Shown here: positions 23,916-63,008 of the stretch, piece after piece
How the letters are laid out: every line of letters starts with the position of its first letter
Position numbering within the stretch: position 1 is the stretch's first letter
Assembly (NCBI RefSeq): GCF_027352905.1
Contig: NZ_DAIEIF010000029.1
Span: 62,001-126,000, forward strand
Length of the DNA: 64,000 nt
Reading direction: 5' to 3'
Source: Acidocella sp.
Lineage (GTDB): Bacteria; Pseudomonadota; Alphaproteobacteria; Acetobacterales; Acetobacteraceae
Program-made: the position numbers and the translations under genes
The notes under the pieces: model-generated
The model's input: the letters and a program-made list of their open reading frames with translations, nothing else
Told to the model about the DNA's origin: nothing
Databases searched by the model: none

Positions 23916-25826
23916 ATGAATAATCTGGGTCGGAATATTGCGCTGTGGGTCGTGGTGGCGCTGTTTCTCGTCGTTCTGTTCAACGTGTTCCAGCCCTCGA
24001 ACACGCAAGGCGATACCTCGCAGATCGCTTATTCGACCTTCCTCGACGAGGTTAAGAACAACCAGGTGCAAAGCGTCACCATCGCCGGGCATGACATCAC
24101 CGGCTCGACCCGGGACGGCAAGAGTTTCGAGACCTACGCGCCCGAGGATCAGACCCTCGTCGCCAAGCTGACGGATGCGGGCGTGAATGTCACCGCCAAG
24201 CCGGAGGGGGATCAGATGAATCCCCTGCTGCGGGCGCTGCTCAATTGGGCGCCGATGCTGCTCATTCTCGGCGTGTGGATTTTTTTCATGCGCCAGATGC
24301 AGTCCGGCGGCGGCCGCGCCATGGGCTTCGGCAAGTCCCGCGCCCGGCTGCTGACCGAGAAGCAGGGTCGCGTCACCTTTGAGGATGTCGCCGGGATCGA
24401 CGAAGCTAAGGGCGAATTACAGGAAATCGTCGAATTTTTGCGCGATCCGCAGAAATTCCAGCGGCTGGGCGGCAAGATCCCCAAGGGCTGTCTGCTGGTC
24501 GGCCCGCCCGGCACCGGCAAGACGCTGCTGGCCCGCGCGATCGCGGGGGAGGCCAATGTTCCCTTTTTCACCATTTCCGGCTCTGATTTCGTCGAGATGT
24601 TCGTGGGCGTCGGCGCCTCGCGCGTGCGCGATATGTTCGAGCAAGGCAAGAAAAACGCCCCCTGCATCATTTTTATCGATGAGATCGACGCGGTGGGCCG
24701 CCATCGCGGCGCGGGGCTGGGCGGGGGTAATGACGAACGTGAGCAGACCCTCAACCAGATGTTGGTGGAAATGGACGGGTTCGAGTCGAATGAGGGCGTC
24801 ATCCTCATCGCCGCCACCAACCGGCCGGATGTCCTCGACCCTGCCTTGCTGCGCCCCGGCCGGTTCGACCGGCAGGTGGTGGTGCCAAACCCGGATGTGA
24901 CCGGGCGGGAGAAAATCCTGCGGGTGCATATGCGCAAGGTGCCGCTGGCCTCGGATGTGGACCCCAAGGTGATCGCCCGCGGCACGCCGGGATTTTCCGG
25001 CGCTGACCTCGCTAATCTAGTGAACGAGGCGGCGTTGCTCGCGGCGCGTATCGGCAAGCGGGTCGTCGCAATGGCCGAGTTCGAGCACGCCAAGGACAAG
25101 GTGCTGATGGGCGCGGAACGGCGCTCCATGGTGATGTCAGAGGAGGAGAAGCGGATGACCGCCTATCATGAGGGCGGGCATGCCATCTGCTCCATCACCC
25201 TGCCGGAATGCGACCCGGTGCATAAAGCCACCATCATTCCCCGTGGCCGCGCCCTGGGCATGGTCATGTCCCTGCCGGAAGGCGACCGCTATTCGATGAG
25301 CAAGATCAAACTCTTGCAACAGTTGATCATGGCCATGGGCGGCCGCGCGGCGGAGGAGATCGTCTTCGGCCCGGATAAGGTCTCCAACGGCGCGGCCGGT
25401 GACATCAAAATGGCCACGGACACCACCCGCCGCATGGTTACGGAATGGGGTATGTCTGAGACACTCGGCATGGTCTCCTATGTCGATAGCGGCCAGGAGG
25501 TTTTCCTCGGCCACTCGATGGGCGGAGCCAAGAATGTCTCCGAGGCGACGGCGCGCGAGATCGATGACGAGGTCCGCCGGATCATCGATCATGCCTATGC
25601 CGAGGCCAAGCGTATCCTCACTGAACGGAAAGACGATCTGGAGCGGCTGGCGCGAGGCTTATTGGAATATGAAACCCTCTCCGGCGAAGAGATCCAGATG
25701 GTGCTGCGTGGCGAGAAGATCATACGCAAAGTGGTGGACGAGCCGATGCCCGATAACCGCCGCGGCTCCGTACCCACCGCCACGCCGAAGCCTGAACTGC
25801 CTGGCCTGGGACCTGTGCCGGCGTAA
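23916..25826 (+). CDS. ftsH: ATP-dependent zinc metalloprotease FtsH
   Basis: Membrane-bound AAA+ protease that degrades misfolded membrane proteins and regulators. The 636-residue protein has two transmembrane helices (about 7-26 and 105-124) flanking a periplasmic domain. The AAA module has Walker A GPPGTGKT (about 196-203), Walker [14 protein letters not shown] and the second region of homology [18 protein letters not shown]. The zinc site HEGGH lies near residue 418. It follows tilS as in other alphaproteobacteria. Confidence 0.98.
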
Positions 25827-26051
25827 CATACGGGCGGGCGGCTCAGCTTCTGGCTGGCTGGTTGGGGCAACCGGAGCCAATACCATATGGCTACTTATCT
25901 TCGCCAACGGGTGTTTCAACCGTGCGCGAAGGGGTAGGTTATGCCCTCGGCGTGTCCCGTCAGACGTCTTAAAGAGGCTTTCTTACATAAATTCCGGAGG
26001 GGTCCTATGCCATGCGGCCCGTTCCAGACGGATAAGACATTCAGCCGAATG
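25827..26051. other. Intergenic region after ftsH with no gene recognised
   Basis: This 225 bp lies between the convergent ftsH and COG4705-type genes. A small dyad GGTTG-GGG-CAACC occurs near 25858-25875, too weak to call a terminator. Composition shifts to less GC-rich from here to about 26950. Confidence 0.4.
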
Positions 26052-26855
26052 TTATCGCACCTGCGATGCCACGCGCGATTCAGGATGCCGTCCTGGCCGT
26101 TGCGGCAAAACCAGAATAAGCACAACGATTATAGCGAGGATCACCCCAGACGCCAGGGGCCGGCTCAGCGCCAGGCCGCCGTGGTTCGTCGGTTTGTCGA
26201 GAAAATCTCCCACGGTCGCGCCGAGCGGTCTCGTTAATATGAAAGCGGCCCAGAACAGAAACACGTGTGAGATTTTGGTCCAAAAGTACAGGGCGGCCAG
26301 TAGGGCCAGCCCCGCACAAAACACGAGCGCGCCGCCATCATATCCCAATCCGGTGCTGTCGGCCATCCAATCCCCGAGTGCCGTCCCCAAGGTCTGAGAA
26401 AATGTGATCGTCACCCAATAGAAGATCTCCACTCTCGGCGCCGTTACCGTCTCAACATTTATCGAGCCGAGAGAGAGGTACCAAACTGCGAGCGAGCACA
26501 GGACGCACGCTAATAAGATCGACGAGCCTCCTGTGTAGCCGATGCCTAACGAGCGATCAAAAAAATCAGCCATGGCCGTGCCCACAGTCGTGGAGGCTAT
26601 AATGGCCAGCCAATAAAACCACGCGTTGAACCTGCGTATCGAGATTTGAGCAATCACCGCCACTACGAACACCGCCAGGAATATGGCGGTGCCGATTAAA
26701 TAACCCCCATTGTGAGCATTTTGATCGGCGTGCAGCCAGGTCATCGTTACTGAGTCGCCGCCTGTTTCACCCAGAGTGGTGGCAAGAATCTTGATCACCC
26801 AGAAGCCGAGGGTTACCGCAGGGACCTTACTCAGGATCTCATCTGAGGTTCGCAT
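26052..26855 (-). CDS. COG4705-type multipass membrane protein with four internal repeats
   Basis: An inner-membrane protein of 267 residues with about eight hydrophobic helices. Four copies of a two-helix unit are visible, each carrying a [TR]xGxxx(G/A)D motif: TTLGETGGDSVTM (near residue 27), TTVGTAMADFFDRSLGIGY (near 90), QTLGTALGDWMADSTGLGY (near 155) and RPLGATVGDFLDKP (near 210). The repeated Gly and Asp inside membranes suggests a binding or transport site, but the function is unknown. The ATG follows GCGAGAGGCATA. It sits alone between ftsH and the Nramp-like gene in a patch that looks less GC-rich, so recent acquisition is possible. Confidence 0.8.
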   Translation of the reverse strand: MRTSDEILSKVPAVTLGFWVIKILATTLGETGGDSVTMTWLHADQNAHNGGYLIGTAIFLAVFVVAVIAQISIRRFNAWFYWLAIIASTTVGTAMADFFDRSLGIGYTGGSSILLACVLCSLAVWYLSLGSINVETVTAPRVEIFYWVTITFSQTLGTALGDWMADSTGLGYDGGALVFCAGLALLAALYFWTKISHVFLFWAAFILTRPLGATVGDFLDKPTNHGGLALSRPLASGVILAIIVVLILVLPQRPGRHPESRVASQVR

Positions 26856-26951
26856 TATGCCTCTCGCAAAGGTTAACCGACATTCCCTTTATGCGCCCCA
26901 TCCGCCTCGGCCCGCGAGGCAGGGCGATTCCTAAAGTTTGTGATAAGCCAA

Positions 26952-28271
26952 TTAGGCAAATGAGGGAACGAGCATGGCCACCACGACCAGGGCCATCAGC
27001 CCCGTCGCCAGCCAGCCGAAGACTTTAAGCGTGCCCCGCACCGCGAAGGGACCCATGATGTCGCACCGGGCGGCGAGCAGCATCATCACCGCCATCACCG
27101 GCACCGCCACCACGCCGTTGATCACGGCGCTCCAGACCAGCGCCTTGATCGGGTTGACCGGCGCGAAATTGATGATCATGCCGATGATCGTGGCGATGAT
27201 CAGCGTGGCGTAAAAGGCCTGCGCCTCCTTTGGCCGGCGGCCGAGCCCGGTTGGCCAGCGGCGCGCCTCGCCAATGGCATAGGCGGCGGAGCCCGCCAGC
27301 ACCGGCACGGCTAATAGGCCCGTGCCGATAATGCCCAGCGCGAAGATGGCGGAGGCGAACTTCCCCGCCAGCGGGGCCAGCGCGGCCGCGGCCTGGGCGG
27401 AACTCTGAATATTGGTGACGCCGTGCGGGTGCAGCGTCGCCGCGGTGGAGACGATGATGGCGAGCGCCACCAGATTGGAAAACCCCATGCCGATGAACGT
27501 GTCCAGCTCGATCCGCCGCAGCGCCGCCGGGCCCTGGCCCGGCGCGTGGACCAGATCGGTCCGCCGGGGATAAACGCGCAGATCCTCCACCTCCTCGGAG
27601 GCCTGCCAAAAAAACAGGTACGGGCTGATCGTCGTGCCAAAAATCGCGACCAGCGTGGTGAAATACGCCCCGTTCCACTGAATATGCGGCCATAGCGTGT
27701 GGGTCAGTAATTTCAGCCAGTCCACATGCACGATCACCAGCACCCCGAAATAGGCCAGCAGCGCGGCGGTTAGCCATTTCAGGACGGAAACATAGCGCGT
27801 ATATTCCAGAAAAAGCTGCATGGAGACGCATATGGCGGCGAAGAGCAGCACGTAGAGCGCATGCGGCGCTGGGAGGAGCAAGGTCATGGCGTCCGCCATC
27901 GCCCCGAGATCGGCGCCGAGATTGATGATATTGGCGGTCAGCAGCAAAACCACGATGATGGTGAGCAGCCATTGGGGGTAATGCAGGCGCAGCACCCCGG
28001 CAATGCCATGGCCGGTGGTGCGGCCGATGCGGGCGCTGATCATCTGCACCGCCACCATCAGCGGATAGGAGATCAGCATCGCCCAGCTCAGCCCATAGGC
28101 GAATTGCGCCCCAGCCTGGGAGTAGGTGGCGATGCCGCTGGGGTCATCGTCGGAGGCGCCGGTGATCAGCCCCGGTCCAAGGAGATGAAAAAGCCGCGGG
28201 CGGCTTGGCCCCACGGTAGGGCTTGGCCCTTCTTCTGGATCGTTCCTGTCTTTGGGCTTGCTTCTTGTCAT
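26952..28271 (-). CDS. Nramp-family metal transporter with altered binding site
   Basis: A 439-residue LeuT-fold transporter with about eleven helices. TM1 reads GLITGASDDDPSGIATYSQAG and aligns with the Nramp DPGN element, but is DPSG: the ligand Asn is Gly. TM6 reads TTISPYLFFWQASEE, where canonical Nramp has a Met-Pro-His motif, so the ligand Met becomes Ser and His becomes Tyr. These changes resemble the loss of Asn and Met in Nramp-related Mg2+ transporters, so Mg2+ or another hard cation is possible. Classical MntH-type Mn2+ uptake is less likely. It has no obvious operon partner. Confidence 0.85.
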   Translation of the reverse strand: MTRSKPKDRNDPEEGPSPTVGPSRPRLFHLLGPGLITGASDDDPSGIATYSQAGAQFAYGLSWAMLISYPLMVAVQMISARIGRTTGHGIAGVLRLHYPQWLLTIIVVLLLTANIINLGADLGAMADAMTLLLPAPHALYVLLFAAICVSMQLFLEYTRYVSVLKWLTAALLAYFGVLVIVHVDWLKLLTHTLWPHIQWNGAYFTTLVAIFGTTISPYLFFWQASEEVEDLRVYPRRTDLVHAPGQGPAALRRIELDTFIGMGFSNLVALAIIVSTAATLHPHGVTNIQSSAQAAAALAPLAGKFASAIFALGIIGTGLLAVPVLAGSAAYAIGEARRWPTGLGRRPKEAQAFYATLIIATIIGMIINFAPVNPIKALVWSAVINGVVAVPVMAVMMLLAARCDIMGPFAVRGTLKVFGWLATGLMALVVVAMLVPSFA

Positions 28272-28356
28272 GCCGAACGCTTCTGCCCGCTGGGGGCTTG
28301 GCGGTCAAAGGGAAATATGCCATGCAATTGCATCATTCTTGCCCCATGAGAGACGC

Positions 28357-28869
28357 ATGGATCTGACCGCACCCACGCCTTGCGGCATGCCGGCTTCCGC
28401 CCGGCGCCGCTTCGCGCCTGTTCTGGCCACGCTCCTTCTCGCCGGGCTGGCGGCCTGCGCCTCATCGCGCCCGCCCGCCTTGGCGCCGCAGGCCATGGCG
28501 GTTGCCGCCCCGGTACCCGCCTCACCCCCGCCGCCCCGCGCCCCCGCCTTGGTGGCCACCGGTCCGGAGCTTTCCGGTACGGCCTCCTGGTACCGCCCCG
28601 GCCGTGGCCTGCATCGCACCTGCACCGGCGAATCCTTCAATGGCGAGGGAATGACCGCCGCCTCCCACACCATTCCCGTCGGCACGCGCGTGCGGGTGGC
28701 GCTGGCGGATGACACCGCTCATTCCATCGTCGTGCGGGTGAATGACTGCATGCCGCGCGGAAGCCGCTTGCTGGATCTCTCCCGCGGGGCCGCCGAGGAG
28801 CTGGGGCTGGTGGATCTCGGCGTCGCGGAGGTGAGCGTCACCCCGGTCATGCTGGTGGATAACCGCTAA
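28357..28869 (+). CDS. RlpA-like lipoprotein (septal ring lytic transglycosylase family)
   Basis: A 170-residue envelope lipoprotein. The ATG at 28357 (after GAGAGACGC) gives a basic N-terminus, a hydrophobic stretch and lipobox LAAC. A Pro/Ala-rich linker follows. The double-psi beta-barrel runs from about residue 77 (SGTASWYRPGRGLH) through GEGMTAASHTIPVGTRVRVAL and VVRVNDCMPRGSRLLDLSRGAAEELGL. The His after MTAAS and the Asp in VND fit the positions of catalytic residues in RlpA enzymes that cut naked glycan strands. There is no SPOR domain, so septal targeting through denuded glycans is not expected. Confidence 0.85.
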   Translation: MDLTAPTPCGMPASARRRFAPVLATLLLAGLAACASSRPPALAPQAMAVAAPVPASPPPPRAPALVATGPELSGTASWYRPGRGLHRTCTGESFNGEGMTAASHTIPVGTRVRVALADDTAHSIVVRVNDCMPRGSRLLDLSRGAAEELGLVDLGVAEVSVTPVMLVDNR

Positions 28870-61717: not shown

Positions 61718-62287
61718 ATGCCTGACGCGCCGACTCAACCCTATGTGACCAGCAAACGGGAAACCCTGCCCAGCGCCGGGTACGCGGCCGCGGGGGCCGG
61801 TCTGCTCTTTTTGCGCGAGGACGAGATCAGGACCGCCCAGGATCTGCTGTTCTTCGCCTTCCGTGACCTGAATGGCCGGTCGGATGCGATCCTGGAGGAG
61901 CTGGGATTCGGCCGGGCGCATCATCGTTGCCTGCATTGGATTGGCCGACGGCCCGGATTGAAAGTGGGCGAATTGCTGGCCATTCTCGGCATCACCAAGC
62001 AAAGCCTTACCCGGGTGCTGGGACCTTTGATCCGCGCGGGCTACGTGGCCCAGGTTCCCGGCACGCGGGACCGCAGGCAGCGCCTGCTCACCCTCACCGA
62101 GAGCGGAGCCGCGCTGGAACGGCGGCTGTTCGAGGCCCAGCGGGAACGGATGCTGGCAGCTTATCGCGAGGCGGGCGGACCGGCGGTGGAAGGATTCAAG
62201 CGTGTGATGCGCGGGCTTATCGGCGAGGCGGGCCGCCAGTGCCTCGAAGGCAAGGAGCTGGTCGGGCCCAAGCCCCGCCAGGGGTGA
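61718..62287 (+). CDS. MarR-family transcriptional regulator (PetP-like)
   Basis: A 189-residue winged-helix protein. LHWIGRRPGLKVGELLAILGITKQSLTRVLGPLIRAGYVAQVPGTRDRRQRLLTLTESGAALERRLFE is a complete MarR DNA-binding domain (about 70-135), preceded by an alpha-helical dimerisation part. The position directly in front of a PetR-like response regulator is that of PetP in Rhodobacter capsulatus, where petP and petR are needed for cytochrome expression. Start ATG 61718; weak ribosome site. Divergent from ilvE. Confidence 0.88.
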   Translation: MPDAPTQPYVTSKRETLPSAGYAAAGAGLLFLREDEIRTAQDLLFFAFRDLNGRSDAILEELGFGRAHHRCLHWIGRRPGLKVGELLAILGITKQSLTRVLGPLIRAGYVAQVPGTRDRRQRLLTLTESGAALERRLFEAQRERMLAAYREAGGPAVEGFKRVMRGLIGEAGRQCLEGKELVGPKPRQG

Positions 62288-62294
62288 GGCGCGC

Positions 62295-63008
62295 ATGGGG
62301 GCTGAGGCATTGCCGGCGGAGGATGCGCCGCACGTGCTGCTGGTGGATGACGACACGCGCCTCGCCGCTCTGGCGGGGCGCTATCTCGCCGAGCAGGGAT
62401 TTCGCGTCACCCGCGCCGCCTCCGCCGCCGAAGCGCGGGCCCGGCTGCGCGCCATGGAATTCGATCTGTTGGTGCTGGATGTGATGATGCCGGGCGAGAA
62501 CGGGCTGGAACTCACCCATAGCCTGCGGGGCGAGCGCGCCCCCACCACGCCCATATTGCTGCTCACGGCGCGCGACACGCCGGAGGATATTCTCGCCGGG
62601 TTCGAGGCCGGGGCGGATGACTATCTCGGCAAGCCCTTCGACCCGCGCGTGCTGGTGGCGCGGCTGCGCGCCATGCTGCGCCGTGCCCACCCGACCGCCG
62701 CCAGCGCCGCCCCCGTGCAGCTCGGCGAGGCGGTGTTCGACGCCGGGCGTGGCGAGCTGGCCGGCCCAGCCAGCCGGGTGCGCCTCACCGGGGCGGAGCT
62801 GGCCCTGCTTTCCGCCCTCGCCGCCCGCCCGCATGAAATTTTCTCCCGCGAGATGCTGGCGGCCGCGCTGGGGCTGGATGACGTGAATGAGCGCGCCATA
62901 GACGTGCAGGTGACACGTCTACGCCGCAAGATCGAGCCGGACCCGCGCGAGCCCCGCTTTCTCCAGACGGTGCGCGGCAAGGGCTATGTGCTAAAGCCCG
63001 GTCCGTGA
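62295..63008 (+). CDS. petR: OmpR-family response regulator (PetR-like)
   Basis: A 237-residue two-component regulator. Receiver domain: HVLLVDDDTRLAALAGRYLAEQGF (acidic pocket), LLVLDVMMPGENGLELT (phospho-acceptor Asp near 60), LLLTARDTPEDILAGFEAGADDYLGKPFDPRVLVARL (Thr and Lys). Winged-helix effector: VRLTGAELALLSALAARPHEIFSREMLAAALGLDDVNERAIDVQVTRLRRKIEPDPREPRFLQTVRGKGYVL. GTGAGGCGCGC precedes the ATG. The gene is 7 bp after the MarR gene and 19 bp ahead of the kinase gene. Confidence 0.92.
   Translation: MGAEALPAEDAPHVLLVDDDTRLAALAGRYLAEQGFRVTRAASAAEARARLRAMEFDLLVLDVMMPGENGLELTHSLRGERAPTTPILLLTARDTPEDILAGFEAGADDYLGKPFDPRVLVARLRAMLRRAHPTAASAAPVQLGEAVFDAGRGELAGPASRVRLTGAELALLSALAARPHEIFSREMLAAALGLDDVNERAIDVQVTRLRRKIEPDPREPRFLQTVRGKGYVLKPGP

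Follow-up and report, generated by a model that had tools for sequence, protein, structure and literature searches.

A fourfold-repeat DUF347 membrane protein in Acidocella sp.: an MmfC2-like relative with a possible role in metal-cation passage

What is the role of a bacterial membrane protein composed of four similar two-helix units, each carrying a glycine-rich motif that ends in an aspartate, and could these four acidic residues serve a pathway for cations? The question is raised by a gene of Acidocella sp. (assembly GCF_027352905.1, contig NZ_DAIEIF010000029.1, positions 62,001–126,000; this whole 64,000-nt stretch is called the window). The gene is located on the minus strand at 26052–26855 and, according to the ORF call, profile search and structure model, encodes an MmfC2-like DUF347 (PF03988) protein of 267 aa with four two-helix units. 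Its ORF starts with ATG, and an AGAGG Shine-Dalgarno-like stretch lies just 5′ of it. The Pfam model PF03988, "Repeat of Unknown Function (DUF347)", matches the protein four times (E = 4.9e-56, 187.2 bits; curated cut-off 28.2 bits), and the genome has only this one DUF347 gene, in which all four repeat matches fall. Judged by its sequence, the product is therefore a member of an already catalogued Pfam family whose fourfold repeat is already in print. The sequence-only reading called the protein "COG4705-type"; a literature search under "COG4705" found nothing, and a search covering UzcY/UzcZ and the general literature found nothing bearing on the DUF347 family.

The fourfold internal repeat proposed in the sequence-only reading is borne out. 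The four motifs it quoted (TLGETGGD, TVGTAMAD, TLGTALGD and PLGATVGD) are all present, a G-x4-D motif occurs in each unit, and the repeat appears real rather than a product of chance, because all six unit-unit profile comparisons align with Asp on Asp (single-target E-values of 2.3e-8, 4.4e-6, 1.4e-5, 7.9e-13, 8.1e-6 and 5.9e-7). With limits taken from model and profile, those of unit 1 being approximate, the units follow one another on the minus strand as unit 1 (26625–26819, residues 13–77; TM1 16–40 with K22, E30 and D34, TM2 51–72), unit 2 (26439–26624, residues 78–139; TM3 78–102 with D97, TM4 106–129), unit 3 (26268–26438, residues 140–196; TM5 140–167 with D162, TM6 171–192) and unit 4 (26094–26267, residues 197–254; TM7 197–220 with R209 and D217, TM8 232–249). 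The Pfam family is defined by two helices and one conserved tryptophan per unit; the window protein has eight long helices, and W19, W82, W147 and W202 are invariant in 85 aligned rows drawn from the best 80 loci of 133 relatives.

This alignment, A1, comes from one scan of genome contigs with 133 relatives, the best 80 loci of which gave 106 proteins, with one short piece dropped; 84 proteins (no pair above 93% identity), among which 18 are tandem paralogues, make up its 85 rows together with the window protein, and the effective sequence number is about 50. Within these best 80 loci, D34, D97, D162, E30 and K22 are invariant (85/85 rows), and D217 is present in 83/85; the two rows without it come from L048, where the match goes no further than residue 206, and from the second L074 copy. 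A further 61 full-length rows from other loci, one being the window protein again and nine partial rows having been dropped, keep D34 in 60/61, D97 in 61/61, D162 in 60/61 and D217 in 60/61. D97 is thus found in 146/146 rows, the window protein being counted twice, down to 23% identity. One divergent member, L120 (23% identical), carries K22N, E30G and D162E simultaneously; this joint loss hints at a coupling of K22 and E30.

An AlphaFold2 model computed on A1 shows eight long helices with a mean pLDDT of 92.5 and a pTM of 0.89. The aspartates had been described as lying inside the membrane: they do lie within helices, but nearer the outer face than mid-membrane, 6, 5, 5 and 3 positions before the last residue of helices 16–40, 78–102, 140–167 and 197–220, respectively. 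Comparison of PDB chains with the family profile gave no match up to E 10, and Foldseek with the model gave none at E ≤ 0.001 (best 0.19). The best VIA-align hit, covering 131 residues, has a Z of 6.7 and an rmsd of 3.7; many MFS-type chains score equally, which may reflect only a common helix arrangement. The profile search thus found no related solved structure, and no convincing fold match emerged among the families compared.

The helices fall into two alternating sets. In A1 (best 80 loci of 133 relatives) mean conservation is 3.1–3.5 bits in the odd helices versus 2.4–2.7 in the even ones, and conservation confined to one side is significant in the even helices only (permutation p 0.0002–0.008, versus 0.06–0.61 in the odd ones). 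The odd helices are also less hydrophobic, with GES values of −0.06 to 0.66 versus 1.32–1.49. We infer that the odd helices form a conserved central bundle and the even helices a surrounding, lipid-facing ring. In the same rows from the best 80 of 133 loci, the N-terminus, the even-odd loops and the C-terminus together carry 9.3 K+R per row versus 3.0 in the odd-even loops, although the 7-8 loop runs contrary with 1.8 K/R per row and weakens the bias. As every unit consists of two helices, the four are oriented alike; by this charge bias both termini would be cytoplasmic and the Asp-bearing ends periplasmic. A cytoplasmic location of the aspartates, which the sequence-only reading named as fatal to its proposal, is thus not what the charges point to: all four would lie on the same, non-cytoplasmic side.

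The position of the aspartates is what gives weight to a structural interpretation, in which the four residues fix the loops or the ends of the helices in equivalent units while the substrate path lies elsewhere, for example at K22/E30/R209. In the model they stand 3–6 residues from helix ends; K22 and E30 are themselves invariant in A1 (best 80 of 133 loci) and are lost together in the sole further row that loses either; and an intact natural paralogue, described below, lacks two of the four and has Asn instead. The persistence of D97 in every row, the window protein again being counted twice, is stronger than is usual for a capping residue, and we hold this interpretation to be distinctly unlikely.

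Among named proteins, the closest relative is MmfC2 of Tn6048, with 62.6% identity over 257 residues; identity to MmfC1 of pHB44 is 33.7%. In the tree, the window protein falls in the C2 clade, with the C1 rows across a branch supported at 100/100. MmfC2, carried by Tn6048 and found in Cupriavidus metallidurans CH34 and on plasmids pHB44, pAKD16 and pMOL98, is of the same subtype, with four PF03988 units and the same aspartates. Its tandem paralogue MmfC1 likewise has four PF03988 units and all four aspartates, but forms a separate, fully supported clade with fixed differences such as R101 versus D101. The order of the cassette in pBVIE02, pHB44 and pAKD16 is PepSY, PAP2 phosphatase, DUF347 (C1), secreted protein (MmfD), DUF347 (C2), response regulator, histidine kinase and EamA or membrane protein; the mmf gene names are those of Table 1 in the available part of PMC4914505. 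Whereas MmfC2 of Tn6048 stands in such a cassette, the window gene stands alone: neither the ordered mmfA-B-C1-D-C2-R-S cassette nor its Tni-type transposition genes were found in the 64-kb window, which has no PepSY, PAP2, MmfD, C1 or strong MmfRS partner and only a weak, 104-bit response-regulator match at 62207–63005.

That no function is known, as had been stated, is correct in so far as there is no assigned activity; yet the names MmfC1 and MmfC2, a reported induction by metals and a published proposal of metal transport exist. The excerpted text of PMC12029693 reports that the mmf genes of Tn6048 are strongly induced by zinc and lead, and in the same excerpts of this 2025 paper the function of mmf is called unknown and C. 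gilardii with the mmf cluster grows as well as a strain without it in the presence of Cd, Co and Zn. In Frankia, according to the part of PMC4531530 at hand, DUF347-UppP operons are up-regulated by lead and DUF347 is proposed as a metal transporter; this DUF347 belongs to the same Pfam family by name but is described there as six-TM, against eight helices in the window model. The proposal is repeated for algae in a passage of PMC9756366. According to PMC11952213, Tn6048 on plasmids pAKD16 and pMOL98 was considered to stem from a laboratory recipient strain; in the portions available, Tn6048 is mentioned without gene function in PMC13192273, PMC8299993 and PMC6210171, and DUF347 without new functional data in PMC11534348 and PMC6249206.

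The bacitracin phenotype of cassette-bearing plasmids bears on a different interpretation, namely that DUF347 serves undecaprenyl phosphate metabolism or envelope repair together with a PAP2/UppP phosphatase and DedA, the metal induction then reflecting envelope damage. As told in the excerpts of PMC4914505, the bacitracin MIC of the host rises from 40 to 300 µg/ml with pHB44, and the plasmid gives better growth without added iron or vanadium and poorer growth at higher levels; the authors tentatively ascribe these phenotypes to the insert. The same excerpts state that pMBUI8 also raises the bacitracin MIC; since this plasmid has only mmfA and mmfB, DUF347 is dispensable for the trait. MmfB has its best match in an undecaprenyl-diphosphate phosphatase model, under the cut-off (131.7 vs 229 bits). 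Around DUF347 genes, 6 PAP2, 2 UppP and 3 DedA genes lie within 1.5 kb and none at 1.5–3 or 3–6 kb (66 loci, self-hits included), but 41 of the 66 loci have no recognisable other Mmf partner at the thresholds used. This lipid-carrier role we consider unlikely.

These counts refer to 66 non-redundant loci; because the query proteins were themselves picked from neighbours, with self-hits included, the distances indicate tight placement and not unbiased enrichment. Any of MmfA, B, D, R or S was recognised within 4 kb in 25/66 loci. PepSY genes number 16, 0 and 1 at 0–1.5, 1.5–3 and 3–6 kb, MmfD 7, 0 and 0, two-component genes 32, 20 and 12, and Nramp 1, 0 and 0. A Pfam scan of the 141 genes within 700 bp (half of the 282 called within 2 kb, from 62/66 loci, genes >700 aa excluded) returned Response_reg 12, HisKA 10, PepSY 9, PAP2 5, VTT 3, BacA 2 and Nramp 1. 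A third interpretation makes DUF347 a sensor or accessory in the membrane, which together with PepSY tunes the neighbouring two-component system, the aspartates binding metal as a signal and not as cargo. MmfR/S-like proteins of at least 150 bits occur within 4 kb in 19/66 loci, the PepSY genes are concentrated within 1.5 kb, and a C1 copy is present in 16/66 of the fetched loci. Many copies, however, that of the window included, have no adjoining two-component system, and tandem copies with different Asp sets would suit transport equally; a sensor function is accordingly rated as rather unlikely.

An assignment of the two-component partners to the heavy-metal subfamily was rejected, TIGR01387 giving 164.7 bits, below its cut-off of 279.2, for the one member detailed, the others being tallied. 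The MmfD-like small secreted proteins, found in 7/66 loci and only within 1.5 kb of DUF347 (L024:5354-5767, L039:5499-5915, L073:1575-2072 and others), include MmfD of pHB44, which matches no Pfam or NCBIfam model. At L131:5502-8741, on a plasmid of Enterobacter, mcr-10.1 is followed 0.9 kb downstream by a C1-like DUF347 gene, an observation of neighbourhood only.

Some copies have metal genes nearby: Nramp (in the window and at L055), an iron-lead permease/GDT1-like gene, and, 5.9 kb upstream of one copy, a VIT gene. Acidic intramembrane residues are a feature of the Nramp and GDT1/VIT-type metal transporters, and an ExGD-like motif suggested a comparison with GDT1 (UPF0016). These transporters, although sometimes near DUF347 genes, showed no sequence relation to them: comparison with a single GDT1-like sequence gave about 0.2% probability over 15 columns and that with a single VIT protein about 0.2%, so kinship with either received no support. 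A gene annotated TMEM165/GDT1 near DUF347 on a Bradyrhizobium plasmid (L127:11244-12005, minus strand) scores 28.9 bits with the Pfam iron-lead permease model OFeT_1, above the cut-off, versus 20.0 with GDT1, below it.

In the window, profile search and genome comparison place an Nramp-family gene (PF01566) 96 bp upstream of the DUF347 gene, on the minus strand at 26952–28271. Its candidacy as an operon partner was dropped, as the adjacency is not conserved across the genomes compared. In one comparison genome, G008 (80% complete), the RlpA-Nramp pair is present with an Nramp 81% identical, at a 4.3-kb locus without FtsH and DUF347, and the genome has no DUF347 match; in G012, G016 and G021, DUF347 and Nramp are on different contigs. 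The Nramp gene is the older resident of the locus. Its nearest solved relative is PDB 7qia (154.5 bits vs 68.2 for the next chain), the magnesium-transporting NRMT. The first helix of the window Nramp reads DPSG; the usual Nramp motif there is DPGN.

The DUF347 gene itself is a newcomer. Its copy nests in an 18-row, mainly rhizobial clade (support 100/98), beside Bradyrhizobium-type rows, while of the eight other same-genus copies in the tree seven group in a clade of their own and one, L015, sits elsewhere on a long branch; the count of "one change" of label on the tree ignores ungrouped rows and does not contradict transfer. Nucleotide similarity to Bradyrhizobium loci extends over 26057–26877 on the minus strand (81.6% to L023), so that the transferred segment is essentially the gene and its ribosome-binding region. 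The gene's GC content is 56% and its GC3 66%, versus a GC3 of 80–86% in four neighbours. These comparisons identify the window copy as a recent horizontal acquisition from Bradyrhizobium-like bacteria, which brought in this single gene and none of the rest of mmf. A search of 25800–28400 found no sigma-70-like promoter, and terminator-like sites there were near the shuffled-sequence number; no RNA element was found upstream of the gene, the whole window having one tRNA only; PADLOC gave no defence-system match; and among the DNA repeats around the gene nothing resembling transposon ends stood out. The family is patchy, occurring in 11/37 same-genus genomes, 18/289 in the class and 46/398 in the phylum, and in 256 of 72,556 plasmid records (66 typed conjugative, 31 mobilizable); several bacterial phyla have it, as do many plasmids and some algae.

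A variant found in nature is supplied by plasmids of B. betae and M. aquaticum. Beside an ordinary C2 copy they carry an intact DUF347 paralogue with Asn at positions 34 and 217 together, and the copies of the two species are 67% identical to each other. On two related plasmids the gene with this Asn pair is disrupted by a frameshift. The loci of the variant are L127:9897-10673, L186:4573-5316, L184 and L185. No further Asn-Asn copies occurred in the scanned loci or in 385 class genomes; a DNA-pattern search for GEVGGN in those 385 genomes gave 7 hits in 6 genomes, with no DUF347 match at these loci. That the variant persists suggests a genuine paralogue, which may be a regulatory partner or one of altered selectivity, and a natural subclade with Asn in two of the units shows that some members do without the full set of carboxylates. 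A bolder interpretation would make DUF347 a one-chain pseudo-fourfold ion pathway with a fold new to the PDB, in which four core helices surround one axis and the periplasmic acidic ring consists of two pairs, units 1+4, switched off in the Asn-Asn paralogue of the Methylobacterium and Bradyrhizobium plasmids with D97 and D162 kept, and units 2+3. We regard it as improbable; if it were true, tandem C1, Asn-Asn and C2 copies would form hetero-oligomers with graded metal selectivity.

We return to metal-cation transport, which we rank above the lipid-carrier, sensor and structural interpretations because of the metal induction and the conserved acidic side. The best explanation, with a probability of roughly 0.42, is that the window gene encodes an MmfC2-type eight-helix cytoplasmic-membrane protein that passes a metal cation when the cell responds to metal stress. 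Its established parts are the family assignment, the four units, the conserved aspartates, the confident eight-helix model and the single-gene acquisition, and the reading of the four-unit array as a cation pathway is plausible. Four parallel two-helix units would place the odd helices in the core and the even ones toward lipid; the four aspartates, assisted by K22 and E30 in unit 1, would line an acidic, periplasm-facing mouth; and a metal cation, most likely divalent, would be moved or admitted across the membrane during metal stress. In the full mmf cassette, MmfC would be coupled to the MmfRS sensor, the periplasmic PepSY protein and the undecaprenyl-pyrophosphate phosphatase, and the window protein, should it function, would do so in the absence of the other cassette components. 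Several points speak against metal transport: in the model the aspartates lie near helix ends and could merely cap or brace the fold; Asn replaces Asp at units 1 and 4 in the plasmid subclade, and L120 combines D162E with K22N and E30G; the adjacency to Nramp is not conserved; the 7-8 loop weakens the charge bias; the two-component partner scored in full stays below the cut-off of the heavy-metal model; and the equal growth of C. gilardii with and without mmf in Cd, Co and Zn, as given in the excerpts of PMC12029693, does not favour it.

The window copy matters little, being one more mobile copy. DUF347 is a family whose genes are reported to be among those induced by toxic metals and which has no assigned activity, and for it the conserved aspartates, the confident model and the Asn-Asn variant provide concrete residues to mutate and a natural contrast.
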